A stretch of DNA of 29,899 bases from a virus, in the IMG/VR virus record IMGVR_UViG_3300006754_000093, positions 1 through 29,899 of that record; one strand, given 5' to 3'. Under the pieces are notes generated by a model. That model saw only the letters and a program-made list of their open reading frames with translations. It was not told where the DNA came from and ran no database searches. This document shows, one piece after another, positions 5,096 through 22,800 of the stretch. Positions within the stretch are counted from its first letter, which is position 1. Each line of letters begins with the position of its first letter. The translations under genes and the position numbers were made by a program.

Positions 5096-6100
5096 ATGAG
5101 TATATCATATAACTACGATGGGACTGTAAATACATACAACGAAAGATCTAAATTATGGAAAGACTTATCTCCTCTTCCAGGGGGAGACAGAGCTTTAGAA
5201 TTAAGATCAGGAATCTTTCTTGAATATCCAAAAGCAAAAATAGAGGATACTAACCCAATTACTTTTATTCCATTTTATGAAAATCCAATAATCTCGGAAA
5301 GAAAATCAGCTCGGTTAGTAGAGTACAATCCAATAAATAGAGGATCAACTTTGTTTTCCCATGTAGGAGCAGACGCTAGATCTATAAATATTGAATTTAT
5401 ATTGTCATTAGCTCATATTAAAAGTTCTTGGAAAAGTGTTTTAAATACAAAGAAAGCTTTTTCTAATTTAGAAAAAAAAGATAGCGAAATGAATAGATTT
5501 TTTGAACGCTTTGTTTCCAGAAGCACAGAAAACCGTAGGCAGGATGATAGCACTAATGTAATTATTAATAGGGTACACAGCGTTCCTTCGGACGCTGCTC
5601 CTCCCGCAAGCTTGGCAGAGGGTATTGCTTCTATAAATGTAGAAGGATGGGAATCTAATAGCGAGGAAAAATTATTAAATCTAGCGGGGCCTTGGAAAAA
5701 ATATGAAGTTACTCACACCGAGACATGGGATGCAAAGAAAACTGTTTTAGATTCTATTACATTTATCTTAGGATTAATAAGAACTTGTGTTGCTGGAAAT
5801 GCTGAGAACTCAATTTTAGGTCCCCCTACTCTTAGATTAAGACACGGATTATCCTATCAAGATGTTCCTCTTTTATGTAGAGATTATAGTATTAAGGTTG
5901 TAGAAGAAGCTGGCTATGATATGGGGACCCTTCTTCCTTTAAGAATAAAAATTTCTTTAAGTACTGTTGAAAATAGAACGGGTGATTTTGGTAAGTTTAA
6001 TCCAGGAAAAGCAATTAAGAGAGATAACCTCGCAGGTTGGGAGGCGGTAATGAAGGACGATAATATCAATTCTACAGACCCACAAAGGATAAACTCATGA
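5096..6100 (+). CDS. Baseplate/tail-tube initiator-like protein
   Basis: A 334-residue protein likely to sit between tail tube and baseplate, comparable in place to T4 gp48/gp54 or LysM-adapter proteins. Residues about 54-108 carry the most family-like text: FIPFYENPIISE, then RGSTLFSHVGADAR and INIEFILSLAHI. This pattern (proline-rich strand, Arg-Gly turn, then beta strands ending in a His) is seen in proteins preceding gp53/LysM proteins in contractile phages. A helical part and a short acidic segment follow, and a beta-rich region from about 215 to 300 includes PPTLRLRHGLSYQDVPLLCRDYSI. GGAGGG lies about nine bases before the ATG. The ATGA overlap with the gp53-like gene indicates coupling. 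The precise T4 equivalence is uncertain. Confidence 0.6.
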   Translation: MSISYNYDGTVNTYNERSKLWKDLSPLPGGDRALELRSGIFLEYPKAKIEDTNPITFIPFYENPIISERKSARLVEYNPINRGSTLFSHVGADARSINIEFILSLAHIKSSWKSVLNTKKAFSNLEKKDSEMNRFFERFVSRSTENRRQDDSTNVIINRVHSVPSDAAPPASLAEGIASINVEGWESNSEEKLLNLAGPWKKYEVTHTETWDAKKTVLDSITFILGLIRTCVAGNAENSILGPPTLRLRHGLSYQDVPLLCRDYSIKVVEEAGYDMGTLLPLRIKISLSTVENRTGDFGKFNPGKAIKRDNLAGWEAVMKDDNINSTDPQRINS

Positions 6101-6375
6101 GTAGAGAACAATATTTAATACCGATAACACACAAAGGTAAGACTATCCTAACGTCAGTTGGATCTACTATTTATGAAAATTCTACTAGTAATGCTGATAA
6201 TAGTATGTTTAGAGCAGGGTACGTCCCCGCAGGGTATGACCACAGACCAGACCTAATTTCTAATCTGTTCTATGGAAACAGCGATAATTGGTGGACTGTG
6301 ATGGAGATTAATGGATTGTCCGATCCTTTTGAAAGCTTAAATATTCAGGATGAGGTTAGGCTCCCCAATGGCTAA
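6097..6375 (+). CDS. gp53: Baseplate wedge protein, T4 gp53/LysM-like
   Basis: A 92-residue protein. The second half shows the recognisable signature HRPDLISNLFYGNSDNWW followed by MEINGLSDPFESL and a C-terminal VRLPN. This is the pattern of gp53-type wedge subunits and related LysM-like proteins (RPDLIS..FYG...WWv..e.NgI.dPfe.l..G..irlP). In T4, gp53 joins wedges around the central hub. This protein is about half the length of T4 gp53 (196 residues), so it represents mainly the LysM-like core. The start overlaps the previous stop as ATGA. The 3' end overlaps the hub gene by eight bases if the hub starts at 6368. Confidence 0.82.
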   Translation: MSREQYLIPITHKGKTILTSVGSTIYENSTSNADNSMFRAGYVPAGYDHRPDLISNLFYGNSDNWWTVMEINGLSDPFESLNIQDEVRLPNG

Positions 6376-9157
6376 TACAGCGGAAGTAAAAAGCAGTAGG
6401 ACTCCTGAAATTGCAACTATTAGGGAGACAATCAATACTCCCCAACTTATTCTTGGGAGAAATAGGGGGGATATTTTTGGTGCCCTTGAAAAACTGAAAG
6501 ACCCAGAGGCCAAAGGGTCAGTATTCTCGTGGTATAAGAAAGCCATCGACAAGGACCATAAAGCTATATTTTTATCTACTATTGAAAACTCAGATATACT
6601 TGAGTTCTCTTATAGTATAAATGCAGGGGGGGCTTCAAGGGAGCAGGGGCAATTTGTTGTCAAAGTATTAGATCCTACTAATACCTTTGAAGATAGATTT
6701 TTCTCTTTCTTTTCTATAGGATCTAAAAGTTATTCCGATTGGATATCTTCTTATGGTAATAGGAGTATATCAAAGGAAACAGATGGAATTATGATAACTT
6801 TTGGGGAGACAGATGACCCCAAAAAATGGGCACCTACCCAAAAGGTAGATCTTATTTATGTAAATTATGAATTGGGTCCCAATAATGTAAGAATATTTAC
6901 ACTTACATTCGCTCCCTCCTCAGGAATGACGGCCTTAGGTGCTACCCCCGAAGAGGAAGCGGTTACAACAGGAAATCTAAATAGAACTTATTCTATCCAA
7001 AGAACATACATAGATTCCAAGTATGTTGATGAATTGGTAGTAGTAGAACGCGCCCCTATTTTAGTTCTTAATCTTATAAAAGATACTTTTGCTAAGTTCA
7101 CTGATGTACCTACTTTTTTAATAGCACAAAAATCTGTATATGAAGCCCTAGACAGGCTTTGGTCCGCTGCCTGTACCAATGCCGTTAACAATTTTATGGC
7201 TAGTACCAAGGGGTATAATTTACGTAGAGGAGGGGCTGGACAAGAATTCAATCGAGCAACAGAATTTGCCCCGATATATAAGGATCTATTTGGACCCTTA
7301 CAAATAGGGGAGACTCCTTCGGGCGTGATGGCTAGCATACCAGGGGCGCATGGGGGTCAAGTTAGGGATACTCTTGATAAAGCAGGATGGCGAACTACGG
7401 GATGGAAAGCTAGGGACGATGCCGAGGAAGCAAGAATAAGAGAACGGTACTCTCGTGAAGAAACGGGACAGAGAAGGGCTAAACTTGCGGACCTTCAGAA
7501 GGCGGCATTGGCCTACATGACTACGAACGATCTTACGGAGTGGTATGCGGGCATTGAGGATTTTATTGGAGACGCTGGTGATATCATTGTGTCCCACGCT
7601 CCTCTTCTGCGATCCCTTGGCCTTCATGGGATAACACGCACAAGACAGAGTGGTATTCGTGCCCAAAAAAAAGGGAAAAGGCGAACTCCTGAGGAACAAC
7701 GAAAGTGGATACTAGGGGAAATAAAAAAAACTCTGGATCAGCTTGTCGCAGAAGGTGCAGAAGATAAGGTCAGAGCATACTTAACTGAGCAAGATTTAAA
7801 AAGGTGGCGCAAAGGAAATATTAATAATTTAGATAGAGCTGATGCATACAAAAGAATAACAGGAGTAGACATAGAGGAAGTTAGAAAACCCATACCAATA
7901 GATAGTGTAGATCAGTATGTATTACATTTGAACGCAGCTTATGATTTTTTTCAGAACTTAGGTTTTACGATAGCAGAAGATTTTACACCCACAGAGTCCT
8001 CCAACCTTACAGGGGCAGGACTCTCTCGCACTGGAGATGAGGCACATCAAGACGCTCGTAAGCAAATGGAAAAGATGATAGTTGATATTCATATTAGATT
8101 AACAGGAAAAACTAGACAAGAAATGAAAGATCAAGCTTTAAGTATTTTAAGTAAAATAAATTCAGCCGATACTTTTATAACTCAAGTATTTTCAGAGATT
8201 AAACTTTGTGAACTAGTTTATACAAAACTCGCTGAAAAAGGTATCCCCCCCAGCACAAAAGAAGATTTTGATAGATTTATTCTAATATCTACAGGAGAGG
8301 CTTATTCTAATCTTTCGCAAATAAAAGAAAGTAAAGATTTTAAATCTACTAATGATACCCTATTCGCAGCCCTGCATGAAGCATTTGTGGAGTTTAAGGG
8401 AGAGATATATTCTGACGTTATTGAAAAAACTGTTATGCACACCTTTACTTATGGAGATATAAATTCTGATATATTAAGTTTTAACTTTGATTTACGTCCA
8501 TGGTACGCATACCTTATAGCTAATGTTATACCTACTATAGCTACAAATGGCTTGTTAGGTAGGAATGCCTCTCATAATAACTTATTTGGATCTATAGCTA
8601 GTTATATTAAGAATACTGGAAATAGAGACACGGGGAACATACGGGGAATTGTAGAGGCTTGGTATGATAAGCATGAAGAGACTCCTGTTCCCAATACTCC
8701 AATATTTGATAGACTACCATTTAAGGATAGAGGGGAGATTCAAGAGGCGTTACTAGGATTCACTAGAGAAGAGTTTATAGACAGTGTGATGGAGTACCTT
8801 GAGGCTAATTTTTCTGCGATAGAAAACCATCAATACGTTATCGTTGATCCTATACAAAAATCTAGTGCTATAGATAATATATTAGCTATGAGAGAGAGGG
8901 TATCCGAAGTTACATTTACAGGACAAATAGAAACTTTACCATATTATAAATTTATGTCCCCCGTTAGAAGTCTAATGTCTAAAATTAATATTAATTTTAG
9001 AGAACCTGATATTAAAATAAATGATTTCTTTGATAGCCGTGAACCCTCTAAATGGTTATCTGGGGAATATACAATACAGGGACTTAGTTTTATTGTTAGC
9101 CAAGGAAAGGTGAGTACTTCTTTTAATATAGTTAAGAATTACAAATTAGAGAACTAA
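6368..9157 (+). CDS. Baseplate hub protein, gp27/gpD-like, with large helical insertion
   Basis: A 929-residue protein, far longer than T4 gp27 (391). The first part (residues about 70-200) has the beta-rich hub look: LEFSYSINAGG, FVVKVLDPTNTFEDRFF. The later part has the hub signature HTFTYGDINSDILSFNFD (about 691-709) and ends with SGEYTIQGLSFIV and TSFNIVKN, as in hub proteins that bind the spike. Between them residues about 320-490 are highly charged and helical (RERYSREETGQRRAKLADLQ). Bases 7321-7560 encoding part of this segment are much richer in G+C than the flanks, consistent with acquisition of a domain. The start at 6368 is preferred over an in-frame ATG at 6350, because TTAGG (6356-6360) is seven bases upstream and 6350 has no such site. 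The spike gene follows after three bases. The hub assignment rests on motifs and neighbours. Confidence 0.75.
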   Translation: MANTAEVKSSRTPEIATIRETINTPQLILGRNRGDIFGALEKLKDPEAKGSVFSWYKKAIDKDHKAIFLSTIENSDILEFSYSINAGGASREQGQFVVKVLDPTNTFEDRFFSFFSIGSKSYSDWISSYGNRSISKETDGIMITFGETDDPKKWAPTQKVDLIYVNYELGPNNVRIFTLTFAPSSGMTALGATPEEEAVTTGNLNRTYSIQRTYIDSKYVDELVVVERAPILVLNLIKDTFAKFTDVPTFLIAQKSVYEALDRLWSAACTNAVNNFMASTKGYNLRRGGAGQEFNRATEFAPIYKDLFGPLQIGETPSGVMASIPGAHGGQVRDTLDKAGWRTTGWKARDDAEEARIRERYSREETGQRRAKLADLQKAALAYMTTNDLTEWYAGIEDFIGDAGDIIVSHAPLLRSLGLHGITRTRQSGIRAQKKGKRRTPEEQRKWILGEIKKTLDQLVAEGAEDKVRAYLTEQDLKRWRKGNINNLDRADAYKRITGVDIEEVRKPIPIDSVDQYVLHLNAAYDFFQNLGFTIAEDFTPTESSNLTGAGLSRTGDEAHQDARKQMEKMIVDIHIRLTGKTRQEMKDQALSILSKINSADTFITQVFSEIKLCELVYTKLAEKGIPPSTKEDFDRFILISTGEAYSNLSQIKESKDFKSTNDTLFAALHEAFVEFKGEIYSDVIEKTVMHTFTYGDINSDILSFNFDLRPWYAYLIANVIPTIATNGLLGRNASHNNLFGSIASYIKNTGNRDTGNIRGIVEAWYDKHEETPVPNTPIFDRLPFKDRGEIQEALLGFTREEFIDSVMEYLEANFSAIENHQYVIVDPIQKSSAIDNILAMRERVSEVTFTGQIETLPYYKFMSPVRSLMSKININFREPDIKINDFFDSREPSKWLSGEYTIQGLSFIVSQGKVSTSFNIVKNYKLEN

Positions 9158-9160
9158 AAG

Positions 9161-10402
9161 ATGCAAGTTTATAGATGTACAGTCCATACCGTAGAGGATA
9201 TAACAAAGACTGGTAGGTTTACGGTGATTCTTCCTAACAGCCCAAGCCCAGTATGGGTTACTTACGTAAGTCCCTCAAATAATGTGGACGGTGGATTTTT
9301 TGCTCCACCAACTCCAAGTACAGAGATTTTAGTTCTTGAGGTAGATGCTTCAAATCATAATAGGGGGTCGGCTGGTCTTTATTATTTAGGAGCTATAGTC
9401 GGTACCAATAGATTTCTAGCAGACGCTCTAGATGATGAGGAATTGAACTCTGATTTTACCACAAACCCACAGGGAGCTACAACTCTCCAAACTAAAGGAG
9501 ATAAGATAGACTTTACATCTTTGGGAGCAAACGCTGAAAGCCCCCCTGTTCTTCCTTTATGGATAGATGACACCTATGCCAATGATATTCTTCCATCTAA
9601 AAATGCATTTTTAGGAAAGGGTAATGGCGGGATCATTATCGCAGATCAGAAAGTTGGAGGGGATTCTGATGCATGGATGAACGCAACAACTACTCTTCAA
9701 GGGGGAGCTGGTAAGAAGATAGAATTATGTGAAACTCCTGCTCAAGATTTTATTAATATAACTACAGGACAAGACGATGCATTAATCGAAGATCATATAA
9801 TCTTAGCAGGGAAGCAAGATGCCGCAGGGGTAGAAGGTGGAACATATTCAGCGGGAGAATTTAGGGTAGATACTCACGGACCTGCAAATATAGTTAGTAG
9901 GGACGCAGGAGTTGAAGTTAGAGTTAAAGAAGGAAGAAATATCGAAATCCTTAATGATTCTACAGGTTTTATGTCCCCAAACCCAGCAGGTAGGAAACTT
10001 TCATTTATTGGAGGTGGAGACGCTATATACATCCCCGAGGTAGATGAGATCGAGTCTGTGGCGTACCCACCCCTCCCTTGGGCTTCAGTTTTTGGAGTAG
10101 GGCAAGTACACCCTGACCTTTTCCCGCCAGGATTCGGATTTAACCCTTTAGACAAGGGAGATGAGAGTTATGGGTGTGTTAATATAAAATCAGAATGGAA
10201 TAATATTAATTTAGAGGCTCTGGGTCCCGATTCTGTTATACATATAAGTGCGCCATATAGTGCTTCTAAAATAGTTATTACTACTGGTGGTACAGTAGAT
10301 ATAGTAGCAACACAGAAAGTAAGTATCACAAGTGGAGAGAAAATAGAATTAAATGCTCCATATATAGATATTAATAGCGGTATAAGGGTAGATTTAGACT
10401 AA
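9161..10402 (+). CDS. Central spike protein, gp5/gpV-like without lysozyme domain
   Basis: A 413-residue trimeric cell-puncturing spike candidate. Residues 1-80 form the OB-fold typical of gp5/gpV/VgrG spikes: GRFTVILPNSP, WVTYVSP, GGFFAPPTPSTEILVLEVD, GLYYLGAIVG. A mixed region follows with alternating short strands (GNGGIIIADQK, FRVDTHGPANIVSRDAGVEV). The C-terminus, from about 350, has short periodic beta repeats (IVITTGGTVDIVATQKVSIT, IELNAPYIDI) as in triple-stranded beta-helix spikes. The lysozyme domain of T4 gp5 is absent, so any peptidoglycan hydrolase would be another protein. No His-rich iron-binding tip is visible at the C-terminus, so a separate PAAR-like tip is possible but not seen here. 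A Pro-rich stretch at about 290-325 (YPPLPW, HPDLFPPGFGF) interrupts the repeat. The stop overlaps the next start as TAATG. Confidence 0.82.
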   Translation: MQVYRCTVHTVEDITKTGRFTVILPNSPSPVWVTYVSPSNNVDGGFFAPPTPSTEILVLEVDASNHNRGSAGLYYLGAIVGTNRFLADALDDEELNSDFTTNPQGATTLQTKGDKIDFTSLGANAESPPVLPLWIDDTYANDILPSKNAFLGKGNGGIIIADQKVGGDSDAWMNATTTLQGGAGKKIELCETPAQDFINITTGQDDALIEDHIILAGKQDAAGVEGGTYSAGEFRVDTHGPANIVSRDAGVEVRVKEGRNIEILNDSTGFMSPNPAGRKLSFIGGGDAIYIPEVDEIESVAYPPLPWASVFGVGQVHPDLFPPGFGFNPLDKGDESYGCVNIKSEWNNINLEALGPDSVIHISAPYSASKIVITTGGTVDIVATQKVSITSGEKIELNAPYIDINSGIRVDLD

Positions 10403-13400
10403 TGGGATTTGATAGACAAAAAGCAGATTTTTTATTTAATACTCTTGATAACCAGACTCCCGCTATGGATATTTTAGAGACTCAGTTCGGAGTTCCTTCT
10501 TGTGCTACTGACTTAGCGGGAGAAGTGTTAGCATTATTTCCTTCAAGTCCACTAGAGAGTTTAAGTAAATCTATTCAAGCAGGAAAGAAAGCAGCTCAGG
10601 ATTACATTAAGGAACAAAAGAGGAAGTTGTTCCTGCAACTTGGAATAATAGAAGCAAAAACCGCTAATGGGATGATGACATTAACCAGCAATTTGAGTGA
10701 TTCTGTCTTAGGTGGAGGTTTTCTTGGTTCTCTCGGAAGCTTGGTAGGAATGGCTAGCGAGGTTTGGGATACAGTTACTGGTATTGTCGATAAAGTCCAG
10801 CAAATAGCTAATTGTATTGATCAACTTTCAACCCATGAATCCTTGAAATCTAACCACTCCGCTCTTGCTAGTAAGTATGCCAACTTTGGTGGTTTTTGTA
10901 AGATAAATGGCAGAAGAAACGCAGATCATATTGATGCATCTTCTTGTGAAGATGCAGGAGGGGTATGGATACCAGGAGTGGACCCTGACAAAGTAAAGGA
11001 ATATAGAGAAGATTTAGATGCAAAATACGCAGTGGAGAGGAAAAATATAATTAATGCTCTTGCTTTTGTTACAAAATCACAAGAACAACTTAATATTATC
11101 AATGAAATACTTAATAATCGTTACCTTGATCCCGACAACTACCCAGAACCCTGCTTTGATGGATCCGTATATGTAGAAAGCCAAGGAAAAACTGTAGCTG
11201 AGATACTAGAAGGGACAGGATTTTGTGTTAGGATGCCTGGACAGGGAGGTTATTGCAGTTTAGGGACACAGTACAAGGATAAGCAAGCCTGTGAAGACGC
11301 AGGAGGTAGGTGGACCGTAGATGAAGAAAAGCTACCACAGGAGAAGTTCTGGGTTAAACCTGAGAGGCTAGATCCTCCCATAAGTACTAAAGAAAAGTTT
11401 ATTTTAACAAGAACAGGCATTTACTACGATTCTGTTAATGGGGGGATTGATCTACCTTCTAATTTAGAAGATATTGTTGAATGTGAATCTGTTATTCCCG
11501 AAGCATCTCTAAGATGGATGTATTTGTATAATCCTAATTGCGGAGGTAAGGGGGAATCTGTTTCTTTAAAGGAATTTAATAAATGGGCTAACACTATATT
11601 CGATATTGAAAATACAGAATTAGAAAACGATCCAAAGATAAAAGAATATTATAACAAAGATCGTTTTCTAACACAAATTCAAGGAGAAAGAAATAGACGA
11701 GTTTATGATACCTCTTCCTATATAAAAGATTTATTGGTTAGTGGGTACGCTGAAGACTCTGCCTTGGTTAGTAATGCGAAGCAAAATGTAAATTCAACCA
11801 TTGAAACTTATGAAAATAAAATAAATAGAAGAAAGAAACAAATACAAATAGCTGTAGTTTTGGGAGGCGCAGAAATAGGGAAAGTTCCTGTTAATGATTT
11901 TTCATTCTTAGATAACACACAAATAAAAATACATGAAAAGGCTCAATCAAGGTTAGCCTTTCTACCTGGAGAAGTTTCCAGTGTCGTGCTGCCTTTAAAG
12001 ATAGCAAGTACAATAAAGAAAGACACTGCCTTAAAAACAGTTTATATAAATCATTTACATGTTCCTACGACAGGAAGAGGTTCAATAATATCATCGGCAT
12101 CATCGGTAACATCTACCCAAGCCCCTGTAGTGTCCCTCACAGACAACATCGTAACTACAGATTTGATTTCTTGTTATAATTTTTTAGGGGCTAATGTAGA
12201 ATCCAAACCAGACTCAATAAATTTTAGCGTAGAAAATACCGCTGATACTGGGACTTCATACAATGCACAAATAGTAGCAAGCTCTTTTGACACCGTGTAT
12301 CCCTCTGGAGTTGGGATAGCCCAGTTCAAGGGTATTTGTAGTTTCTTCTCAGGGACAAATACTAAAGCGTCCTACTACTTATCTCCTCCCTCTGCCCAGT
12401 ACCTACAGTCCCCATACAATCCTTTAAGTTATATGAGGCTTCCTCAAAATATAAATGATTTTGAAAGTCTTCTTTATAAGAGAGAAGGTTTTACTCTAGA
12501 TTGTTGGATTCATGTACCCACATTAATGACAAGTAGTTATGATGGGTGGGATACTTCTCTAGAATCCTCCTCCATGCACAGGATTCTTTTAGGTAATGAG
12601 AACCGTGGGGGAGATAAGCAGGTTACAGACGCAGAAAGAATGGAGATATTCCAAGATTACGACTCCGTTAAGGGTTTATTGGTAGGCTTTACGAGGGATA
12701 GGAGATTTACAAAGAACTTACCTCTTTCAAATGATACTGGACTAAACCCTGTAGATTCTGATCTAAAGTTTTATATGGCACCCACAAGGTCTATAAATAC
12801 TAGTAGTATAACTTTCATACCAAAAGCTAGTTTAGATTGTTTCGCAAATACCACCGACCCCCAGAGATATTTGGGAGCAGTGTTAGATGTGACAGGTCCT
12901 ACTGGGACTACTTCTGCTTTGGGAGATTGTTCATCTACTTTTAAGCATTTATCTATAACTTGTGATCCTTCTGGGGATGGAAGAGTTGCTATTTACTCTG
13001 ATGGGGTAGAGGTTCTGTCTCAAAATTATGTTAATACTTTTGGATTTACAGGACCTCCTAATATCCCGTCTCCTGTAGATTCTAGTAGCTTCAGCTACAC
13101 AAATTTATATGAAAATTCTTTACCAAAAGGATCTATAACCTATATTCCATCTGCTGTATATCAGGGAGATTTCTGGAGATGGAATGCCCCAGGAGCGGCA
13201 GGGTTTACCCCTTGGATAATTGGTGGCGGTTACACAGACGGAATGACCAATAAAGAATTTGGATATAGCCCAAGCTCCGATTCGGGTATGAATTTTCTTG
13301 GATCTAAGGACGGTGGCTTAAGAAGTGGCTTTAATGGAATGGTCGGGAGTTTAAAGCTATATAAAAGGGCACTAAATAGTGCGGAAGTATTAAAGAACTT

Positions 13401-13440
13401 TAATGCTCAGAAGGGATTCTTTAAGAATATACAAACATAA
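10402..13440 (+). CDS. Large baseplate-associated protein with C-terminal LamG-like domain and paired Cys motifs
   Basis: A 1012-residue protein. Residues 1-170 are mostly helical, including a Gly-rich amphipathic part (GGGFLGSLGSLVGM). Two copies of a Cys motif occur: F-C-K...SCEDAGGVW (about 167-189) and Y-C-S...ACEDAGGRW (about 285-304). A helical and charged middle (about 385-500) follows. The C-terminal part (about 690-1010) looks like a laminin-G/concanavalin jelly roll: FTLDCWIHVP, HLSITCDPSGDGRVAIYSDG, FNGMVGSLKLYKRALN. LamG-like domains often bind sugars, so a surface-binding role is plausible. The gene lies between spike and gp25-like genes, a place where a core baseplate protein would be expected. 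TAATG overlaps link it on both sides. I do not recognise the whole protein. Confidence 0.72.
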   Translation: MGFDRQKADFLFNTLDNQTPAMDILETQFGVPSCATDLAGEVLALFPSSPLESLSKSIQAGKKAAQDYIKEQKRKLFLQLGIIEAKTANGMMTLTSNLSDSVLGGGFLGSLGSLVGMASEVWDTVTGIVDKVQQIANCIDQLSTHESLKSNHSALASKYANFGGFCKINGRRNADHIDASSCEDAGGVWIPGVDPDKVKEYREDLDAKYAVERKNIINALAFVTKSQEQLNIINEILNNRYLDPDNYPEPCFDGSVYVESQGKTVAEILEGTGFCVRMPGQGGYCSLGTQYKDKQACEDAGGRWTVDEEKLPQEKFWVKPERLDPPISTKEKFILTRTGIYYDSVNGGIDLPSNLEDIVECESVIPEASLRWMYLYNPNCGGKGESVSLKEFNKWANTIFDIENTELENDPKIKEYYNKDRFLTQIQGERNRRVYDTSSYIKDLLVSGYAEDSALVSNAKQNVNSTIETYENKINRRKKQIQIAVVLGGAEIGKVPVNDFSFLDNTQIKIHEKAQSRLAFLPGEVSSVVLPLKIASTIKKDTALKTVYINHLHVPTTGRGSIISSASSVTSTQAPVVSLTDNIVTTDLISCYNFLGANVESKPDSINFSVENTADTGTSYNAQIVASSFDTVYPSGVGIAQFKGICSFFSGTNTKASYYLSPPSAQYLQSPYNPLSYMRLPQNINDFESLLYKREGFTLDCWIHVPTLMTSSYDGWDTSLESSSMHRILLGNENRGGDKQVTDAERMEIFQDYDSVKGLLVGFTRDRRFTKNLPLSNDTGLNPVDSDLKFYMAPTRSINTSSITFIPKASLDCFANTTDPQRYLGAVLDVTGPTGTTSALGDCSSTFKHLSITCDPSGDGRVAIYSDGVEVLSQNYVNTFGFTGPPNIPSPVDSSSFSYTNLYENSLPKGSITYIPSAVYQGDFWRWNAPGAAGFTPWIIGGGYTDGMTNKEFGYSPSSDSGMNFLGSKDGGLRSGFNGMVGSLKLYKRALNSAEVLKNFNAQKGFFKNIQT
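10935..10956 (+). repeat. Perfect 9-bp inverted repeat with 4-base loop
   Basis: TGCATCTTC (10935-10943), loop TTGT, then GAAGATGCA (10948-10956). It lies within the codons of the first Cys motif of the LamG-like protein. There is no T-tract after it, so it does not look like an intrinsic terminator. Confidence 0.7.
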
Positions 13441-13934
13441 TGATTTCTGATAACAAAAATATTTACGGATCTTTGCCTTCTAAAGCAGCTAAGAGACAGA
13501 TAGCCTCCCAAAATAAATTTTTAATGGGTATTAGCTATCCTTTTGCTCAATCTAGAACAAAAAGAGTCCTTGGAGACGTACAAAAAGTATCCAATGTAGA
13601 TTATTTTGCAAAATCAGTGGACAAAGAACTAATAAGAGGGATGTTGAGACAATTATTCCTAACTCGTAAAGGTGAAAGGGTAATGAACTCTTCTTTTGGT
13701 CTTAATTTAGATGATTACGCCTTTTCTCCTCTTGATATAACAACATTTGAAATTTTAAGAGCGGATATAACGACACAAATCAGTATCTTTGTACCTTTCT
13801 TTGAAATAATAAAGCTAGGTATATTTGAATCTGATCCCACTATAGCAGAGAATGGGTTGGTAGTTAAATTAACGGGACAAATACGAAGTAATAATCTTAT
13901 AGATCCCTTTGAAGTTGAGGTAAACATAGGATGA
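13440..13934 (+). CDS. gp25: Baseplate wedge protein, gp25/GpW family
   Basis: A 164-residue wedge subunit. The central signature is LRQLFLTRKGERVMNSSFG (about 67-87) followed by LDDYAFSPL, matching the gp25/GPW family, in which the GER motif of the core strand is highly conserved. The remainder has the expected helix, then beta-strand pattern ending in LVVKLTGQIRS and FEVEVNIG. In T4, gp25 forms the wedge core with gp6 and gp7 and nucleates the sheath. About 50 residues precede the core and are basic, slightly longer than in T4 gp25 (132 residues). TAATG overlaps the previous stop and ATGA the next start, so it is co-translated with the gp6-like gene. Confidence 0.92.
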   Translation: MISDNKNIYGSLPSKAAKRQIASQNKFLMGISYPFAQSRTKRVLGDVQKVSNVDYFAKSVDKELIRGMLRQLFLTRKGERVMNSSFGLNLDDYAFSPLDITTFEILRADITTQISIFVPFFEIIKLGIFESDPTIAENGLVVKLTGQIRSNNLIDPFEVEVNIG

Positions 13935-15553
13935 GTTTTTCAGGAACTGTAGATTCAGATTTTATGAAACTAGGTAAGATACCAGAGAATAGAAAATCTG
14001 ATTTTATAAATTTTGCTGCTGTTGATTACGAGACAATAAAACAATCTTTGGTTGAGTACATAAATGCGGTGTACCCCGAAGATTTTAATAACTTTTATGG
14101 TTCGGAATTAGGGATGATGCTAGTAGAGCTTGTGGCCTATATGGGTGCGGTAAATTCATTTAAGGCAGATACTCTAGCTAATGAATGTTTTTTAAATACA
14201 GTAAAAAATAGAAATAATCTAAGAAAATTACTTCAACTTATAGGGGTGTCCTTAAAAGGACCAGCCTCTGCGTCCTCTAGAGCACAATTAACTTGGAATG
14301 AGTCCACAAACCCTACAGACTCCCAAGTCTCCGCAGTATCTTTCTCTAACCAAAATAGAGTTGTGACAGTAGCTTCTCCTGAGGATGGGAGCCCCGTAAC
14401 ATATTCCCTATATAAGCTAAATTCAAATAATGAAGTAGTAAATATAGAAAATAGCGCAGACTCTATAACAATAAATGGAGCAACTGATTCTGATAATAGT
14501 CTAAGCTCCGTGTACTCTAATTTAGCATTATTAGAGGGTGCTCTAATCTTAGAGACAGGAACATTTGGCTCCATTGATCAAGTAAAAACTATAGCTTTAG
14601 GTGAAGGTCCTGTAGTAGAAAAAAGCGTTAGAGTGTATATTACAGCAGATTCCACAGCAGATCAATCTGCAACTGGAACCTATACTCAAGTAGATAAGAT
14701 ATTCTCTGCCTCGGGTAGCTCTGATAAAATCTTTGAGGTGGCCTATTCTAATAACTATAACGGTGTTGTTATTTTTGGGGATGGTGCTATTTCGCAAGCT
14801 CCTCCTCATAATGCAACTTATGCTGTAACTTATAGAGTTGGTGGTGGATCCAGAGGAAATTTAGTAAAAGAATCTATAAATGCGTTAATAATAGGAACCG
14901 ATGGAGATGATAATTCCCTTAGTTGGAGAGTAGAGAATATAAGCGAGATGACGGGAGGTAGAAACGGAGAAACAGCAGAACAGGCTAAGAGATATGCTCC
15001 TTATACTTTTAAATCCCAAGATAGACTTGTAACTTTAGAAGATTATATAGCATTCGGAAGTAGGTTCTACAGTGCTATTGGAACGACTGCCAAGGTAGCA
15101 GCAGTTACTAGGGAGGGCTTTTCTTCTGCTAATATAATTGATTTATTCGTATTAGAGAAGGCTACCGACCTACAACTTCAAAAAGCGTCTCCAACATTTA
15201 AAAATAATCTACTAACTGAAATTGATGCTAAGAAGATGCTTACTGATCATGTAGTTATAAATGATGGAGTGATACGGACTTTAGATTTAACAATAAATCT
15301 TAGATTAGATAGAGAATATCGAGAAATAGAAGAAGAAATTAAAAGAAAGGTAACCGCACAGGTACTAGACTTTTTCTTTGTGGATAATATGGAATTTGGA
15401 CAAGAATTTCTTAAAGTTGAGCTGGAGAGAAAGATATTCCAGCTATCAGAAATTAGATTTGCAACAATTGATAATATTGATGATATTATCCCTGTAGATC
15501 ATAATGAAATAATACAACTTAATAATTTTAGTTTAGATATAGTGTATCTCTAA
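13931..15553 (+). CDS. gp6: Baseplate wedge protein, gp6/BaseplateJ family
   Basis: A 540-residue protein. The N-terminal part (about 1-110) includes FNNFYGSELGMMLVELVAYMG and NLRKLLQLIGV, the usual opening of gp6-like proteins. The central BaseplateJ part has VIFGDGAISQAPP and YRVGGGSRGNLV (about 282-313), then TGGRNGETAEQAKRYAP and QDRLVTLEDYIAF (about 342-377). The C-terminus is strand-rich with LDLTINLRLDREYREI and ends in a helix/strand region. In T4, gp6 dimers tie neighbouring wedges and form the inner iris of the baseplate. The length is close to T4 gp6 (660). Coupled to the gp25-like gene by ATGA and to the gp7-like gene by TAATG. Confidence 0.92.
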   Translation: MSFSGTVDSDFMKLGKIPENRKSDFINFAAVDYETIKQSLVEYINAVYPEDFNNFYGSELGMMLVELVAYMGAVNSFKADTLANECFLNTVKNRNNLRKLLQLIGVSLKGPASASSRAQLTWNESTNPTDSQVSAVSFSNQNRVVTVASPEDGSPVTYSLYKLNSNNEVVNIENSADSITINGATDSDNSLSSVYSNLALLEGALILETGTFGSIDQVKTIALGEGPVVEKSVRVYITADSTADQSATGTYTQVDKIFSASGSSDKIFEVAYSNNYNGVVIFGDGAISQAPPHNATYAVTYRVGGGSRGNLVKESINALIIGTDGDDNSLSWRVENISEMTGGRNGETAEQAKRYAPYTFKSQDRLVTLEDYIAFGSRFYSAIGTTAKVAAVTREGFSSANIIDLFVLEKATDLQLQKASPTFKNNLLTEIDAKKMLTDHVVINDGVIRTLDLTINLRLDREYREIEEEIKRKVTAQVLDFFFVDNMEFGQEFLKVELERKIFQLSEIRFATIDNIDDIIPVDHNEIIQLNNFSLDIVYL

Positions 15554-18500
15554 TGTCTAAAAGAAGCGTAACAGATAATTTTACTAAGTATACGGGAACT
15601 CTAACGAGACCCACAGCGGGAAGTCCCGAGAGAATCCTCCCAGGTTCCCAGTCCTATTTTAAGAGAAATTACTTAGATGCTGTAAAAATTATTACGCCAA
15701 ATGTGTACTTTGACGATGATATATCGCTTAGTGGGGTTGAGGTTACCGAAGTAGACCAGCTAATTAACTCACATATTTTAGCTGCTGATTCTTCTGCTGT
15801 TATATACGTATCCTCCCTTCCAACCGTAGAGTATCTTAGCTCCGTCAGCGCAGTGGGTGGTATTTCTAAGTATTTTGTGAAACAGAATAACCTTACTTGG
15901 GTTTCCCCCACTAACTTTGAGAACAATATACTTCAAAAGATAGGAAAGACTTTATCTAATTTCAGTTCTAGTGGAGATTTGTTAAATTATATATCAGGAA
16001 CTTTTCTTCCTACAATAGAGCTAGAAAAAAATGATGGAACTCCTGGAAATAATCTAGCAACAACAACAGCTTCTGCGTTCTCTAACGATAGTTCAGGAAC
16101 CCATAAGTATTTAATAGATAAATTATCATGGCTTTACTTTCTAAACGCCCCAGACCCAGCAGGAGCTAACGTAAGACCTTCGGGGTATTCAACCTCGGGT
16201 GAGGTTGCAACTCTTCTTGCTAAAAACCTTTGGTTTGGGGAAGTTATTGGTTTAGATGATTGTTTAAAGATATTTGAAAGATATTTGTGGAGTAATTATT
16301 ATTCCTTCTCGTCCATTGATGAGCGTATTTTACCTGAGAAATACAGAACTTCTGGTTCTGATGCTACATCTGGTTATAATGCTCTTTCTTATGTCTCAGG
16401 AACACAGCATAGGGATAGATTAGAAACTTTAGTTAGTGTTCTTTATGAGGGAGATTATTTTAATCTAAACGATACTAAAGTTAGGGATTCATTTTCTGAT
16501 TATATCAGCACCACCTCTTTAATTTCAGATGAAGATTCAGCAGGACCCCTTAATAGGGCATTAAAAGCATTCTCCTTCTCTTTTGCTGATAGAAGTTCAG
16601 AAATAAAAGAACTTGAGACCCTCGTTGATATAGATCACTGTCCTGATGAGCTACTCCCTTATTTAGCTGATTTAATCGGGTGGACGTTGATCGGACCAGA
16701 CTCAACACGACACAGGAATCAGCTCAGACAGGCTGTATCAATTTATAAGGCTAAAGGAACGAAGAGATCCGTCCAGGGCATGGTTGATTCTGTGTTCGGC
16801 AGGGACGGAGCCTTTAATATAACCTCTGGGACTCTATTTGATCTGTGGGAATCTTATATTCCTAATATAGTATTTTATACTCTGATGACGAGTTCTAATC
16901 TAACAGAGAACGGGTTAGCTTCCTTTAGTAAGGATAGGGCTGACGTTTTGGGGTTGGATAGCTATTCTACTAATTTAGAAACCAATGTTAGGTTAGCTGT
17001 TGATAGGATTATGTGGGAATTAGCTAATGAGTTCCCTAATAATTTTATTTTTGGGAACTCATTATTTCCTAGAGTTACATTCTTCTTAGAGCCCCCTAAA
17101 ACTCATTTACCCGCTTTTCTTCCCCTAGATCAGGAAGAGATAAAATACGAAGGCCCATGGAACAGAACCGAAGATGGTGATTTCTATACGGGATCAGTTT
17201 TTAATATAAGAACTTCCCATAAAATAATACCAAAACAAGATCAAAATTTTATTTTTACTTATAGGGATAGGGTTATGCCTATTCCACCATGGGAAGAGAT
17301 AAAGTATTATTCTAATTGTCAAGTATCTCTTCCATTATTAGAATCTTTAAAAAAGAAATTAGTATGTTTTGGTGTGGATACAAATTCGGCTAATAGTGTT
17401 CACTCTTATATTCTTAATAATACTTTAGAAAAAGAAGATGTAAATTTTTATAGAAATTCGTTCCTATTCTTTACAACAACAGAACAAACACCTTTTAATT
17501 ATGACAAAGTAGTTAATAATACTAGGCCCTATGGGGATGATTTATTTAGGTACTTACCTTTTTGGAGTTCTAAGTCTTCTCATTTTAAAATTTCTTTGTC
17601 CGCAAGTTCATTCGATTTTGCTTCTATTAATTTAGATAAAGAATCAAAGTATGCTTTATCTAGAGTAAAAACTCTTGTTAATACGGTAGCTCCAGCCCAT
17701 GCTACAGCCGATATAATTCTTGACGTATCTTCTGTTGAAGATACTAATATAGCTCTTAGTGCAATCTCTACAATGAAGGCTGTTCTTGGGTTGAGTTCCG
17801 TGGCCGTATCTTCTAATGCCTCTGCCACAATACTTACTAACTTTGCTGTTAGTACTATAAATCCAAGAAATACGAGCGTCTTACCAGCGGGTCAACAAAC
17901 AGTATTTAGAAGAGAAGCGGCTAATAGCTTGAGCGGTGCTTTGATGGGATCTGGAGTAGCGGATATTTTCTTCTCGGCTGCTCCGCGCAACGCTATTCGG
18001 AGAAAAAATCATAAGTATTTAATGAACTGGGAGAATGTAGATATTAGGGATGGGATGGGGTCTGCTGGGTATGACTGGCTTTATAGGGCAACACAACTTC
18101 CCGTTAACAAAGATGGGGGGAGTTTTTATTCAACAGGTGCAAACCTTCTAACCTCGGGGATATTCTCACTTGGATTCATCCCCAGTAGTTTATCCTTCTC
18201 CCCTGTTCCCCTAAAGAGAGATCCTAATAACTTTGGAAACCTTATTGATAATGTAACCATAAGTCCTGTTTGGAACAACTGTCAAGCTTATAATTCTTCC
18301 GACAGCTTTTTTGGGGTTGAAGTAAGTACTACCTTTCCTTTGAGGGGATTGTCTGGGGTTGATAGCTCGGCTGCGTCTTCTTTCTTTGGCAAACGAGGCT
18401 CTTTAACTGAATTGCAAAGCTTACAACATAGAGTAAGAGAGGCTTCGATCCTACATGAGGCTTCCTCTATAGTATCAGGATATTATAATCCCGATGGGAC

Positions 18501-20229
18501 TGTGAATTCTTCGTGGCCTGTGTCCTCCTCAAAAATACAACCTGTAACAGTGTCCAGTTGGTACGTCGATGAATATAGGGATGTATTAAACTCAATTGCT
18601 AATCAATTACATGAAAATACTATTAGTGTTAGTAATTTAAACTATATGGGAGATTTTGCTTTTGGATCTACATTACATAAGTTTTATAAGGATTGGCTTG
18701 ATCACTATACAAGAGTTCCTATAAATTTTAATTTCAAGTATGATGCGGGTGCTAATAATATTATAACTCATACTTACGGTCCTTACTTATTCAATGATGA
18801 TTATGAAATTACTGCGTCGTCCATAGATGATGTAGCTCCTGGATTAATAACCTCCTCTATTGGCTCAGTTAGGACAGGGGATCTTATTAATATAGGTTAC
18901 TATTTTGGTAGGGGAGCAATGGCAATGGCTCCATCTAACGCATGGGGTATAACAAATTATGCTGCCTCCAATGCTTCAGACATGTATGTAGGAAGAATTG
19001 AAGTGAGAAATGATTCTTTCTTAAGTGGAGTAGAGTTTGTTGATACATCTAACCCATACGCAGTACAACAAGCACAATTCTATACCACCAGTAGGGGTAC
19101 GCTTGATTTCAACTTAACGGGGGCTTATATACCTCCTAATGAACCCTATACCTTACCTACCACATTTGCCTTTTTAAGAGTTACAGGTTTGGATAAGGAT
19201 GTAAAAACTAAAAATATTCCTGAGTGGATGAAGTCCTCAGTTTTACAAGATAATCTTGTTATTAAATATGGAAGAAACGCCGCCAATACCTTCCCAAGAA
19301 TAAGATATAAGATAGAACCTGATTCTAGTAGACCTGATTTTAAAAATTACTTATTTCCAAATTCGGACTACCAGATAGATATTAATGCTGCTAATATACA
19401 TTCAGATTCTGACCTTATAGGAGGCCGTACTTTAAAGGTTTGGATTCATACTGAGCCTATTTCCTATACTTACAAAAAACCAGATAAAACGTATACAACA
19501 GAAAATTCTATATGGTCTTTCTCTAACGGCACATGGGTAAGACATAAACTCTCAGTTATAAATGAAGACTTACCTTTCGGAATAGTTCCTGGATTATCTA
19601 TTGGAAGTAAATTTACAGAAAAAAATATAACTGATATCATTAGATACGGCGAAAAAGAAAATTCTTCAATGAGAGATATAAAGACTAACAAGATTATAAC
19701 TCCATACCACAATCTTTCACCTAGGGTAGGGTGCATGGCAGGAGGAACTTCCTCGGAGGAGGAAGTTCCGAGCGTTTACCGCTGGGCCTCCCAGTCCTTG
19801 TTTGAAACTCTAAGTTTTAATTTCAATACAAACAATAATGGAATTAAGGATCAGATAACAGAAAAGATTCATACCAAGGATAGAAAATATTACATAGAGA
19901 TATTCTTGGAGACAGCAGATCCAGACTCTTTTATATTACTTAATACCATTAGTATGTATAATAAAACTTTTAGAGAAAGAGCGATAGTTCCCACAAGCTA
20001 TAATAAGTATGAACTAAATAAGCATGAATTAAAAGCATGTTTTGATTATTTTACCTCTCTAGCAAAAAGTACTTTAGCTTCTAGAAATGCAATTACAACT
20101 TCTGGGGAGATGGGGGTTAGTGGAGGGGGTAGATTAAGTTATAGAGATAATATAAAGAGAGAGATTTATGCTCTGTCTGGAGATGGAAGTTTTAATCAGG
20201 TGAGTTCTCTGATTATTAGAGGAAATTAG
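15553..20229 (+). CDS. Large baseplate wedge protein with P2 gpI-like core (gp7 equivalent)
   Basis: A 1558-residue protein, the largest in the window. Residues about 355-420 contain the tail protein I signature: DIDHCPDELLPYLADLIGW, then RHRNQLRQAVSIYKAKGTKR and VQGMVDSVFG. In P2 this is gpI and in T4 part of gp7, the wedge subunit that pairs with gp6. Position right after the gp6-like gene agrees. T4 gp7 has 1032 residues; here there are about 500 more, including beta-rich regions in the second half (about 950-1400), which may be added domains that bind fibres or other peripheral proteins. A strong stem-loop lies in the gene at 19744-19769, in codons for a Ser/Glu run. The stop TAG directly abuts the next ATG. 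Confidence 0.85.
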   Translation: MSKRSVTDNFTKYTGTLTRPTAGSPERILPGSQSYFKRNYLDAVKIITPNVYFDDDISLSGVEVTEVDQLINSHILAADSSAVIYVSSLPTVEYLSSVSAVGGISKYFVKQNNLTWVSPTNFENNILQKIGKTLSNFSSSGDLLNYISGTFLPTIELEKNDGTPGNNLATTTASAFSNDSSGTHKYLIDKLSWLYFLNAPDPAGANVRPSGYSTSGEVATLLAKNLWFGEVIGLDDCLKIFERYLWSNYYSFSSIDERILPEKYRTSGSDATSGYNALSYVSGTQHRDRLETLVSVLYEGDYFNLNDTKVRDSFSDYISTTSLISDEDSAGPLNRALKAFSFSFADRSSEIKELETLVDIDHCPDELLPYLADLIGWTLIGPDSTRHRNQLRQAVSIYKAKGTKRSVQGMVDSVFGRDGAFNITSGTLFDLWESYIPNIVFYTLMTSSNLTENGLASFSKDRADVLGLDSYSTNLETNVRLAVDRIMWELANEFPNNFIFGNSLFPRVTFFLEPPKTHLPAFLPLDQEEIKYEGPWNRTEDGDFYTGSVFNIRTSHKIIPKQDQNFIFTYRDRVMPIPPWEEIKYYSNCQVSLPLLESLKKKLVCFGVDTNSANSVHSYILNNTLEKEDVNFYRNSFLFFTTTEQTPFNYDKVVNNTRPYGDDLFRYLPFWSSKSSHFKISLSASSFDFASINLDKESKYALSRVKTLVNTVAPAHATADIILDVSSVEDTNIALSAISTMKAVLGLSSVAVSSNASATILTNFAVSTINPRNTSVLPAGQQTVFRREAANSLSGALMGSGVADIFFSAAPRNAIRRKNHKYLMNWENVDIRDGMGSAGYDWLYRATQLPVNKDGGSFYSTGANLLTSGIFSLGFIPSSLSFSPVPLKRDPNNFGNLIDNVTISPVWNNCQAYNSSDSFFGVEVSTTFPLRGLSGVDSSAASSFFGKRGSLTELQSLQHRVREASILHEASSIVSGYYNPDGTVNSSWPVSSSKIQPVTVSSWYVDEYRDVLNSIANQLHENTISVSNLNYMGDFAFGSTLHKFYKDWLDHYTRVPINFNFKYDAGANNIITHTYGPYLFNDDYEITASSIDDVAPGLITSSIGSVRTGDLINIGYYFGRGAMAMAPSNAWGITNYAASNASDMYVGRIEVRNDSFLSGVEFVDTSNPYAVQQAQFYTTSRGTLDFNLTGAYIPPNEPYTLPTTFAFLRVTGLDKDVKTKNIPEWMKSSVLQDNLVIKYGRNAANTFPRIRYKIEPDSSRPDFKNYLFPNSDYQIDINAANIHSDSDLIGGRTLKVWIHTEPISYTYKKPDKTYTTENSIWSFSNGTWVRHKLSVINEDLPFGIVPGLSIGSKFTEKNITDIIRYGEKENSSMRDIKTNKIITPYHNLSPRVGCMAGGTSSEEEVPSVYRWASQSLFETLSFNFNTNNNGIKDQITEKIHTKDRKYYIEIFLETADPDSFILLNTISMYNKTFRERAIVPTSYNKYELNKHELKACFDYFTSLAKSTLASRNAITTSGEMGVSGGGRLSYRDNIKREIYALSGDGSFNQVSSLIIRGN
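19744..19769 (+). repeat. Perfect 11-bp inverted repeat with 4-base loop inside the gp7-like gene
   Basis: GGAACTTCCTC (19744-19754), loop GGAG (19755-19758), then GAGGAAGTTCC (19759-19769). As RNA it would be a stable, GC-containing hairpin. It is followed by GAGCGTTTACC and not by a U-tract, so it is not a standard terminator. It encodes part of a GGTSSEEEVPS segment, probably a surface loop. Confidence 0.8.
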
Positions 20230-21495
20230 ATGAAGATTAAAGGCGAAGTAGAAGTATTTAAAATAATGCAGGACGGAGCATCCGAAAGTGTTCTCAAAGA
20301 GAGTAACATGGTGGTGGATGGTGCGTCTGAAGTTATTGTTGATATGCTTACTACTCCTTATAGTCTAAAGAACCTAGCAGGATCAGAATCTCTCAACCCC
20401 TCTAACTTTACAATACAAGCAGTGTCCTTAGGAAAAGCTGAGAAGCTATACGGGGGCCATCCTGACACAAGTGCAGCAGACACCGATGTTATTGGTATGC
20501 ACGGATTTTACAACAACAGAAACTTATCTTCTATTTTTGCAGATAAGAACGCTGACGCTGACCTATCAGCATTTATAGGTGCTAGAAATTTAGGCGGGGC
20601 TTCTTCTTTTACTCCTTCTTATGAACTTCCAAAGGATCCACGCCCACGGGACACACGATTAGAGAATTCATCCAAAACTCAAGTCCAGTTGTATTATGAG
20701 CTTTCCGCAGTGTCCGAGTATCCAGAGCTAACAACATACACTGCTCTTTTCAGTCCTTCAAATACTCCTTCTTGGAGAAATGCAAGTGCTTTAATAACTC
20801 CTAATGGACATAATTTAAATTCTTATTATTCATCTTCTGTTAAAAGTATGGAGACTCTTTACCAAGGATGCTATGCTCCTAGTAGTGGGGTTAATATTTA
20901 TATATGGGATACTTCTGTAACTAGGGGCGCGGTCACAGAGACATCAGCCCCTTGGACCTACCTACTTTCCAGCATAAACACAGTAGTATCAGGGGTTAAG
21001 GGTAGATACAATACTGTGGGGTCTATGGATAGGGAGGGTTATTTAGTAGCTTATCCTATACAAAATCACCCTGCTAGCGGAGATACTACTCAGGGCGTTG
21101 CGGTGTCTGCTGCTACCGCTAGTTCCTTGACAAGTGTGTCCTACACAGGGGGAGGTTTAGTTGACGGGTCTGCCGCCTTTATAGGAAGTCCTGCTGTATG
21201 TTATAACTTCACTATCTCTTCCACTGATCTACTATGTCTAGCAGCATATAAAGGATTTACCAATATAGGGTTGTGGGCTTTAGACGCTAAAGAAACATTT
21301 AAAAGCGAAGCTGCTCCCGTAGCATGGACCACGCCAACTAACAATAGAAAATACAAACTATTTGCTAAAAAAGTATTTAGCGAGGATTTAACAACCATAA
21401 ATGATGCGGTCGCTGCGAGGCTTGCTGGTATAAAAAATTATGCAGATCTAACTATTCAGTGGAGAATAAACTTTGATTTTGGGAGGACATTCTAA
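20230..21495 (+). CDS. Tail/baseplate-associated protein, paralog 1 of 3
   Basis: A 421-residue protein and the longest of three adjacent paralogs. The N-terminus reads GEVEVFKIMQDGASESVLKE, then SNMVVDGASEVIVDML, matching the other two. The C-terminus has NIGLWALDAKETF, then LFAKKVF and ADLTIQWRINFDFG, corresponding to the (E)xGLF...lvAyk...K...l.i.W.i.F pattern found in many phage tail proteins. The additional middle (about 70-340) is Ser/Thr/Tyr-rich and lacks obvious repeats. It likely sits at the baseplate edge or in a fibre connector; T4 gp8/gp10-like roles are conceivable but not shown. The ATG abuts the previous TAG, with AGAGGA about seven bases upstream. The stop overlaps the next start as TAATG. 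Confidence 0.75.
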   Translation: MKIKGEVEVFKIMQDGASESVLKESNMVVDGASEVIVDMLTTPYSLKNLAGSESLNPSNFTIQAVSLGKAEKLYGGHPDTSAADTDVIGMHGFYNNRNLSSIFADKNADADLSAFIGARNLGGASSFTPSYELPKDPRPRDTRLENSSKTQVQLYYELSAVSEYPELTTYTALFSPSNTPSWRNASALITPNGHNLNSYYSSSVKSMETLYQGCYAPSSGVNIYIWDTSVTRGAVTETSAPWTYLLSSINTVVSGVKGRYNTVGSMDREGYLVAYPIQNHPASGDTTQGVAVSAATASSLTSVSYTGGGLVDGSAAFIGSPAVCYNFTISSTDLLCLAAYKGFTNIGLWALDAKETFKSEAAPVAWTTPTNNRKYKLFAKKVFSEDLTTINDAVAARLAGIKNYADLTIQWRINFDFGRTF

Positions 21496-22196
21496 TGGGG
21501 GGTCACCTTAAAGTAACAAAGATTTACGATGACTATAAAGAAGTGGTTGTCGATGATAGTAATATGTTAGTTCGGGGACTTGTTGTAGATATAGTTTCTA
21601 TATTAACAGGAGAAGCAGTTAGTATACCATCTATAACCCCTGGGTATCTTCAGTTGGGAGTTAGTGGTATGAACTCTTCTCGGGATGGGGGTTTAGCGTC
21701 TGGTATATTCTATCATTTATCAGCACCCCTATCCTCTACCTCCCAGTATGGAGATGAGACTACATTAGAGCTTCAAAAGTTGAATAGATCATTTCTTGCG
21801 TCCACCGCAGACAGTGGAACTACCTACAGTGAAATGTTGTTTTTGAGTGCTGGCGTGTCTAGTGCCCCTGCGTCCTCTATAGAAACGTCTTCGACCTCGG
21901 ACAAGCACTGGTTTATTCCTATACCACGAACTAATATTACTAAAACTTATTTAGACTCTGTAGAAGTGAGTATAGTTTTAGATAAAGACACGGCAAATGG
22001 TATTTTATTAAGAGAATTTGGATTATTTTCTAAAAATCCGATAGGATACAAGAATGATAAGCCCTTATTAGTGGCATACAAGCAGCTTAGTGAACCTTTA
22101 ACTAAAAGATCTGAGTTTAAATTGCTTATAGAATGGAGTATTGGGTTCTTAGGGAATTCAAATATTTATGATAATATAACTCCTGGAGTTAAATAG
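21495..22196 (+). CDS. Tail/baseplate-associated protein, paralog 2 of 3
   Basis: A 233-residue paralog. N-terminus: GGHLKVTKIYDDYKEVVVDD followed by SNMLVRGLVVDIVSIL. C-terminus: LREFGLFSKNP, then LLVAYKQLSEPLTKRSEF and LLIEWSIGF. Between these is a Ser/Thr-rich beta-type region. It lacks most of the middle found in paralog 1. Coupled by TAATG to paralog 1. Its TAG stop overlaps the TAGTATATAA motif that precedes paralog 3. Function is inferred from the pattern only: a small virion protein at the tail tip or fibre base. Confidence 0.75.
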   Translation: MGGHLKVTKIYDDYKEVVVDDSNMLVRGLVVDIVSILTGEAVSIPSITPGYLQLGVSGMNSSRDGGLASGIFYHLSAPLSSTSQYGDETTLELQKLNRSFLASTADSGTTYSEMLFLSAGVSSAPASSIETSSTSDKHWFIPIPRTNITKTYLDSVEVSIVLDKDTANGILLREFGLFSKNPIGYKNDKPLLVAYKQLSEPLTKRSEFKLLIEWSIGFLGNSNIYDNITPGVK

Positions 22197-22203
22197 TATA
22201 TAA
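22193..22203 (+). promoter_or_regulatory. Repeated ATAGTATATAA motif, possible late promoter -10 element
   Basis: The same 11 bases occur at 2902-2912, upstream of the first tail gene. Here they start over the stop of paralog 2 and end nine bases before the ATG of paralog 3, in one of the few intergenic gaps of the operon. In AT-rich DNA an 11-base match can arise by chance, so this is a candidate only. Confidence 0.3.
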
Positions 22204-22212
22204 TGAAGAGAT

Positions 22213-22800
22213 ATGAAACAAAATGATATATTAGATGTATCTGGTCATTTAGAGATTTTTAAAATATTTTCTGATGGCACAGAAGAGAAAGTATTTGATG
22301 ACCATAATGTCATTACTTCTGGGATGGGAGTAGGTCTAGCTATGCTTTTCGCTGGACAGGGATCCTCTACGGTGGAAGACTTCCAGATAAGATATTTCCA
22401 AGTAGGATCAGGAGCCCCAACTTCATATGATTATACTCAAGGTAGTTTAGGTGGATACCAAAAAACAGAAGCAGAGTATGGGAATAATGTTGTTGTAAGT
22501 AACCATAAAAGAATGTTACCCCAAGGAGGTCCATCACCTACGAATGAGATATTCCTACTCATCTCCGATAATGTAATAAAGAAATCTTCTTCCACTTCGG
22601 TTACCTATGTTTTATATTTGCCTGAGGATTCATCTTTTGAACAAGACTTGAATGAAATTGGATTATTTATGTCTAACCCTTTAGCAGTCCTTATATCAGG
22701 CCAAGATAGGAGGAGTCCTTTGGTAGCCTATAGAACCTTTAATAATATAAAGAAAACGAACCAGTTCTCGTTGGTATTTAAGTGGAAGTTGAGTTTTTAA
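22213..22800 (+). CDS. Tail/baseplate-associated protein, paralog 3 of 3
   Basis: A 195-residue protein, the shortest and most compact copy. N-terminus: SGHLEIFKIFSDGTEEKVFD, then HNVITSGMGVGLAMLF, and a strand IRYFQVGSG. C-terminus: LNEIGLFMSNP, SPLVAYRTFNNIKKTNQF, LVFKWKLSF. The ending closely follows the general tail-protein pattern in which a Glu-x-Gly-Leu-Phe turn is followed by an Ala-Tyr/Arg strand, a Lys-Thr and a final Trp strand. It probably shows the minimal domain of this family. AAGAGAT lies directly upstream of the ATG, after a 16-base gap from paralog 2. The next gene begins three bases after its stop. Confidence 0.78.
   Translation: MKQNDILDVSGHLEIFKIFSDGTEEKVFDDHNVITSGMGVGLAMLFAGQGSSTVEDFQIRYFQVGSGAPTSYDYTQGSLGGYQKTEAEYGNNVVVSNHKRMLPQGGPSPTNEIFLLISDNVIKKSSSTSVTYVLYLPEDSSFEQDLNEIGLFMSNPLAVLISGQDRRSPLVAYRTFNNIKKTNQFSLVFKWKLSF

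Follow-up and report, generated by a model that had tools for sequence, protein, structure and literature searches.

The baseplate hub gene and its neighbours

The window analysed here is the whole of positions 1–29,899 of IMG/VR record IMGVR_UViG_3300006754_000093, from a marine virus of bacteria. An open reading frame of 935 aa (6350–9157, plus strand) lies in a cluster of baseplate genes; an alternative ATG at 6368 gives a 929-aa form. Directly 5' of it is a small baseplate wedge-like protein in the gp53-like slot (6097–6375, plus strand; PHROG 1269 and others, E ~3e-5), and directly 3' is a putative spike in the gp5-like slot (9161–10402, plus strand), which has no PHROG or Pfam match and is assigned from its position, conserved in relatives. 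The cluster also holds a gp25-like wedge gene (13440–13934, plus strand; PF04965 GPW_gp25, E 6e-9) and a gp6/J-like wedge gene (13931–15553, plus strand; PHROG 219, E 8e-36) that served as the anchor for locating relatives. Just upstream of the baseplate genes is a probable exonuclease gene (1694–2608; PHROG 69, E 2.5e-28), its start overlapped by a 362-aa minus-strand ORF (853–1941). At 20230–22800 are three consecutive ORFs of 421, 233 and 195 aa; the latter two both match PHROG 5417 (unknown function), which suggests tandem duplicates.

The 935-aa protein matches no Pfam or PHROG family at E 0.001, and tblastn of the whole protein against phages found no match. A scan of 28 hubs of its family against PHROGs found two families, each matching one member weakly. 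A profile match is not a strict requirement for a hub of the gp27 type, since T4 gp27 and its fold relative Mu gp44 have no detectable sequence similarity (PMC3004832). AlphaFold2 (AF2) was run twice, with 7 and with 28 sequences, and the 7-sequence model had the poorer middle. With 28 hubs, two blocks (about residues 22–185 and 690–925) are modelled at moderate to good confidence; the region between them is predicted to be helical, mostly at pLDDT <50, too low for contacts to be taken from the model. The best PDB match of the model by Foldseek is T4 gp27 (1k28_D, E 5.7e-4, prob 1.00), with a low TM-score across the whole protein, followed by a KP1-variant baseplate and further T4 entries. Judged by its gene place and predicted fold, the ORF at 6350/6368–9157 is a gp27-like baseplate hub, as the first-pass annotation had proposed.

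T4 gp27 is built of two homologous tube domains (PMC3004832). The predicted first tube (beta-barrel) domain here covers about residues 26–192 (6425–6925, plus strand), an N-terminal block conserved in about 25 hubs; AF2 block means are mostly 50–87 over residues 22–185 of the 929-aa form. The C-terminal tube-domain block covers about residues 687–935 (8408–9154, plus strand), with a family-profile score of 69.8 bits (i-E 5.5e-23) and AF2 block means mostly of 50–86. The region from the first tube domain to an anchor motif, LGFTI, comprises residues 193–539 (6926–7966, plus strand), with uncertain borders set by profile anchors. The anchor itself, which we call LGF, is at residues 537–541 (7958–7972, plus strand); by collinearity, its counterpart in other hubs is the conserved 'lGlel' motif. 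The region preceding it contains a GC-rich, charged, predicted-helical segment, residues 321–480 (7310–7789, plus strand; GC core 7312–7551), which is the subject of this analysis. Two minus-strand ORFs, 6988–7338 and 7298–7699, overlap it.

Composition of the GC-rich segment

The interval 7312–7551 has 129 G or C in 240 bases, the highest count among all 240-base windows of the 29,899-base contig. The first-pass annotation placed 129 at 7321–7560, where an exact recount gives 128 (53.3%); the peak itself is real, and the flanking counts given with it (37/120 at 7021–7140 and 14/60 at 8101–8160) are exact. The rise spans about 7250–7790, past the limits first drawn. Relative to 80-codon windows of coding sequence (mean 0.383, sd 0.050), the peak has z = 3.1. 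It was matched in 0.15% of 2000 permutations of codon order along the coding sequence, a significance that is somewhat overstated because shuffling strips natural autocorrelation.

To separate amino acid content from codon choice, we computed the GC expected when codons are redrawn by the contig's own usage with amino acids held fixed. At 7322–7561, GC is 0.529 observed and 0.468 expected from amino acids, against a coding mean of 0.383. Amino acid content (more Ala, Arg and Gly; fewer Asn and Phe) thus accounts for 58% of the rise and the remainder is synonymous, so Arg, Ala and Gly content, raised earlier as a possible full explanation, covers the larger part. Compared with the remaining hub, residues 321–480 are richer in Arg (10.6 vs 4.9%), Ala (11.2 vs 6.6%) and Gly (10.0 vs 5.8%). 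The charged helices described from the sequence agree with a charged fraction of 33% vs 25% and a low-confidence helical prediction.

The synonymous remainder is mild (GC3 0.46 observed vs 0.32 expected, z ~3). Among 386 codon windows ranked by synonymous excess, a hub window is barely first, closely followed by those at 16573, 22864 and 21675, which deviate about as much. The codon usage of residues 321–480 deviates more than that of 99% of equal-sized (160-codon) contig windows, a rank that depends on the limits chosen: the 80-codon core is in the top 7% and a 210-codon version in the top 15%. The largest excesses in the segment are at CTT (8 vs 3.1 expected) and CGA (4 vs 0.6), with GCG also raised (4 vs 1.9); TTA (1 vs 5.3) and AGA (5 vs 10.5) fall below expectation. 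This direction of shift, CTT for TTA and CGN for AGA, agrees with the initial impression from the sequence. Of the three codons then named as increased, CTT and GCG are indeed up, and CGG is absent from the listed enriched codons.

An insertion in the middle of the hub

Syntenic hubs were located through the gp6-like anchor protein in viral contigs and in one contig of an Altibacter metagenome-assembled genome (MAG). Complete related hubs are 760–1111 aa long, and the 595-kb phage record LR756511 has a syntenic ORF of 719 aa. Such lengths are family-wide, so the large total length of the window hub cannot be credited to the GC-rich segment alone. The Altibacter-binned contig (NZTP01000017.1, locus L119) carries a relative of the baseplate cluster and is a possible hint of flavobacterial hosts for the wider family, subject to binning error.

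The middle region of all hubs aligns poorly, and lengths were compared between profile anchors. From the first tube domain to the LGF anchor, the window hub has 347 aa, compared with 119–178 aa in 21 hubs outside the window's clade (a set that includes some close pairs). This is 13 sd above those relatives, a surplus of roughly 190–200 aa. From LGF to the C-terminal block, the window hub has 156 aa vs a median of 242, so the surplus is partly offset: the total middle is 503 aa vs a median of 404. The window's LGF anchor matches the family profile weakly (−1.3 bits), and its placement therefore comes from collinearity. A global profile alignment put the LGF equivalent near residue 312, and the segment again fell within unmatched surplus. 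These comparisons support a location of the GC-rich segment in an insertion, the exact borders of which are uncertain. Hubs of other lineages (L030/L037, L050 and L119) have extra residues after the LGF motif, with 325–431 aa from LGF to the C-terminal block; growth thus appears to be a general property of the hub middle.

The closest non-sibling by gp6 (L012, 69% identical) has a sequence that ends before the insert. The nearest complete relative, L013 (gp6 60% identical), carries an insertion at the corresponding position, with 307 aa separating its first tube domain from LGF. This insert holds the GC maximum of its hub (0.512, top 0.7% of its locus), with 0.465 expected from amino acids and ordinary codon usage. 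The first-pass annotation had reasoned that an acquired domain would be refuted if close homologs all carried the segment at ordinary composition; L013 is ordinary in its codons but GC-peaked at the same site. When the window insert was aligned locally to other hubs, L013 alone beat all shuffles. The first alignment with L013 clashed with the LGF anchor, so a restricted test was used, in which the shared pattern GAH...AGW...DD..AR had a shuffle p of 0.016. The resemblance is weak and only suggestive of homology between the two inserts. A clade-specific scan for further insert-bearing relatives returned the known loci alone.

The closest contigs are 99.5–100% identical to the window across the hub region, and their differences are not confined to adenines. 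Between the window and one 99.5% identical sibling (L011), 39 of 45 differences over 6743–15154 lie in the genes for the hub and the putative spike, none in the gp25-like gene and two in gp6. On small counts, pN/pS is about 0.84 for the hub and 0.3–0.4 for the spike and a 1012-aa ORF. Seven changed bases in the run 7018–7024 replace Lys-Tyr by Ser-Gly. We considered the GC-rich segment as a hot spot of recent change and rejected this: it holds 2 of 10 sibling amino acid changes (K384T, L419F), the share predicted by its length. In the 1558-aa ORF at 15553–20229, a probable tail protein, ungapped register with the sibling is lost after 17119, which points to an insertion, a deletion or a replaced stretch.

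Origin and role of the insert

The reading we favour, with some confidence, is that the GC peak is the most Ala/Arg/Gly-rich part of a lineage-specific, probably ancestral helical surplus in the hub middle and not a recent acquisition. The insert probably predates the split between the window phage and L013 and has since diverged fast; this is the simplest reading of an L013 insert that has the same place, a GC maximum and ordinary codons. Horizontal acquisition of the segment as a domain from a higher-GC source, not yet ameliorated, was the original proposal. It draws on the raised GC3 and on the outlying codon usage of the 160-codon segment, but equal synonymous excess occurs in other windows of the contig, and the insertion at the same site in L013 has ordinary codon usage. 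A search with the segment by itself, as suggested at the outset, covered phages, plasmids, viral contigs, GTDB genomes, Pfam, PHROGs and the PDB, and matched only near-identical sibling contigs; where viral and genome contigs were scanned by pattern, close relatives alone are detectable. No donor or relative outside the hub family was returned. Of the proposed acquired domain, the insertion is upheld by the anchor distances; the outside source is not borne out, given the lack of a donor, the 58% of the rise that comes from amino acids, the equally deviant windows and the ordinary codons of L013. We regard a foreign source as unlikely. Less likely still is that there is no discrete insert, the hub middle being simply fast-diverging and the GC peak a fluctuation in amino acid content. 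Ala, Arg and Gly do explain most of the rise and the middle of every hub is poorly alignable, but the distance from the first tube domain to LGF is far outside the range of the 21 relatives, the total middle is also longer than the median, and synonymous GC is raised too.

For the role of the insert, we prefer by default a structural one, in which it would pack with partners; an envelope-active role is the main alternative. The surplus would enlarge the inter-tube domain, and three copies might then project from the trimeric hub ring. These could pack against wedge and spike proteins of the same lineage and so make the tip stiffer or adapt it. An enzymatic or sugar-binding domain for envelope penetration, housed in the hub like the domains of cyanophage A-1(L), seems to us improbable. 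Enzymes embedded in hubs have precedent in that phage (PMC10966104) and the size is similar (~200 aa), but relaxing the thresholds brings up no credible match in Pfam, PHROGs or the PDB. The segment has one chance-level match in Pfam, none in PHROGs and one chance-level match in the PDB (E 0.58), and no lysozyme, endoglucanase or peptidase domain is recognisable in it by these databases; for comparison of catalytic motifs it has one counterpart, which is distant. We give similarly low weight to a broader reading, that hubs of this marine myophage clade carry a helical domain outside all known families, which forms three tail-tip appendages acting on the host envelope (by binding, or on membrane or wall), and that it belongs to an insertion hot spot in the hub middle which receives different domains in different lineages.

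The hub belongs to a largely unannotated family of long marine-phage baseplate hubs, in which growth of the inter-tube domain would differ from lineage to lineage. Inserts that touch the host would be new factors determining how its envelope is penetrated; inserts that do not would show how a symmetry-adapting hub tolerates large additions. Related IMG/VR hubs (L013, L017, L021, L030, L050, L114 and others) share synteny with the window hub and are homologous to it in both tube-domain blocks, but among them only L013 has its surplus before LGF, in the stretch that follows the first tube domain; in the rest a surplus is either lacking or lies further downstream.

Among characterized systems, T4 gp27 (PDB 1K28) similarly has two tube domains bracketing a middle region, and is likewise encoded amid wedge genes of the gp53, gp25 and gp6 types. 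The two proteins have no sequence-profile match. The T4 protein is about 390 aa (44.4 kDa; PMC3004832), so the window hub is more than twice as long, as first noted, and its helical middle of about 500 aa is without counterpart in T4. Two long (722 aa) phage tail proteins also match the hub model: SPO1 gp12.1 (BFVD B6V2P9; E 1.7e-4, prob 1.00) and a baseplate protein of phi812 (PDB 9euf_E; prob 0.54). Both align in part, over about 190–310 columns, with no sequence similarity found. Hub gp15 of the Anabaena myophage A-1(L) is likewise a conserved barrel enlarged by extra domains. Those domains are named enzymes (lysozyme, endoglucanase and peptidase, with activity tested for two; PMC10966104), whereas none is recognisable in the window hub. 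Compared with these systems, the window hub appears to be a modest variation on the known baseplate machine.
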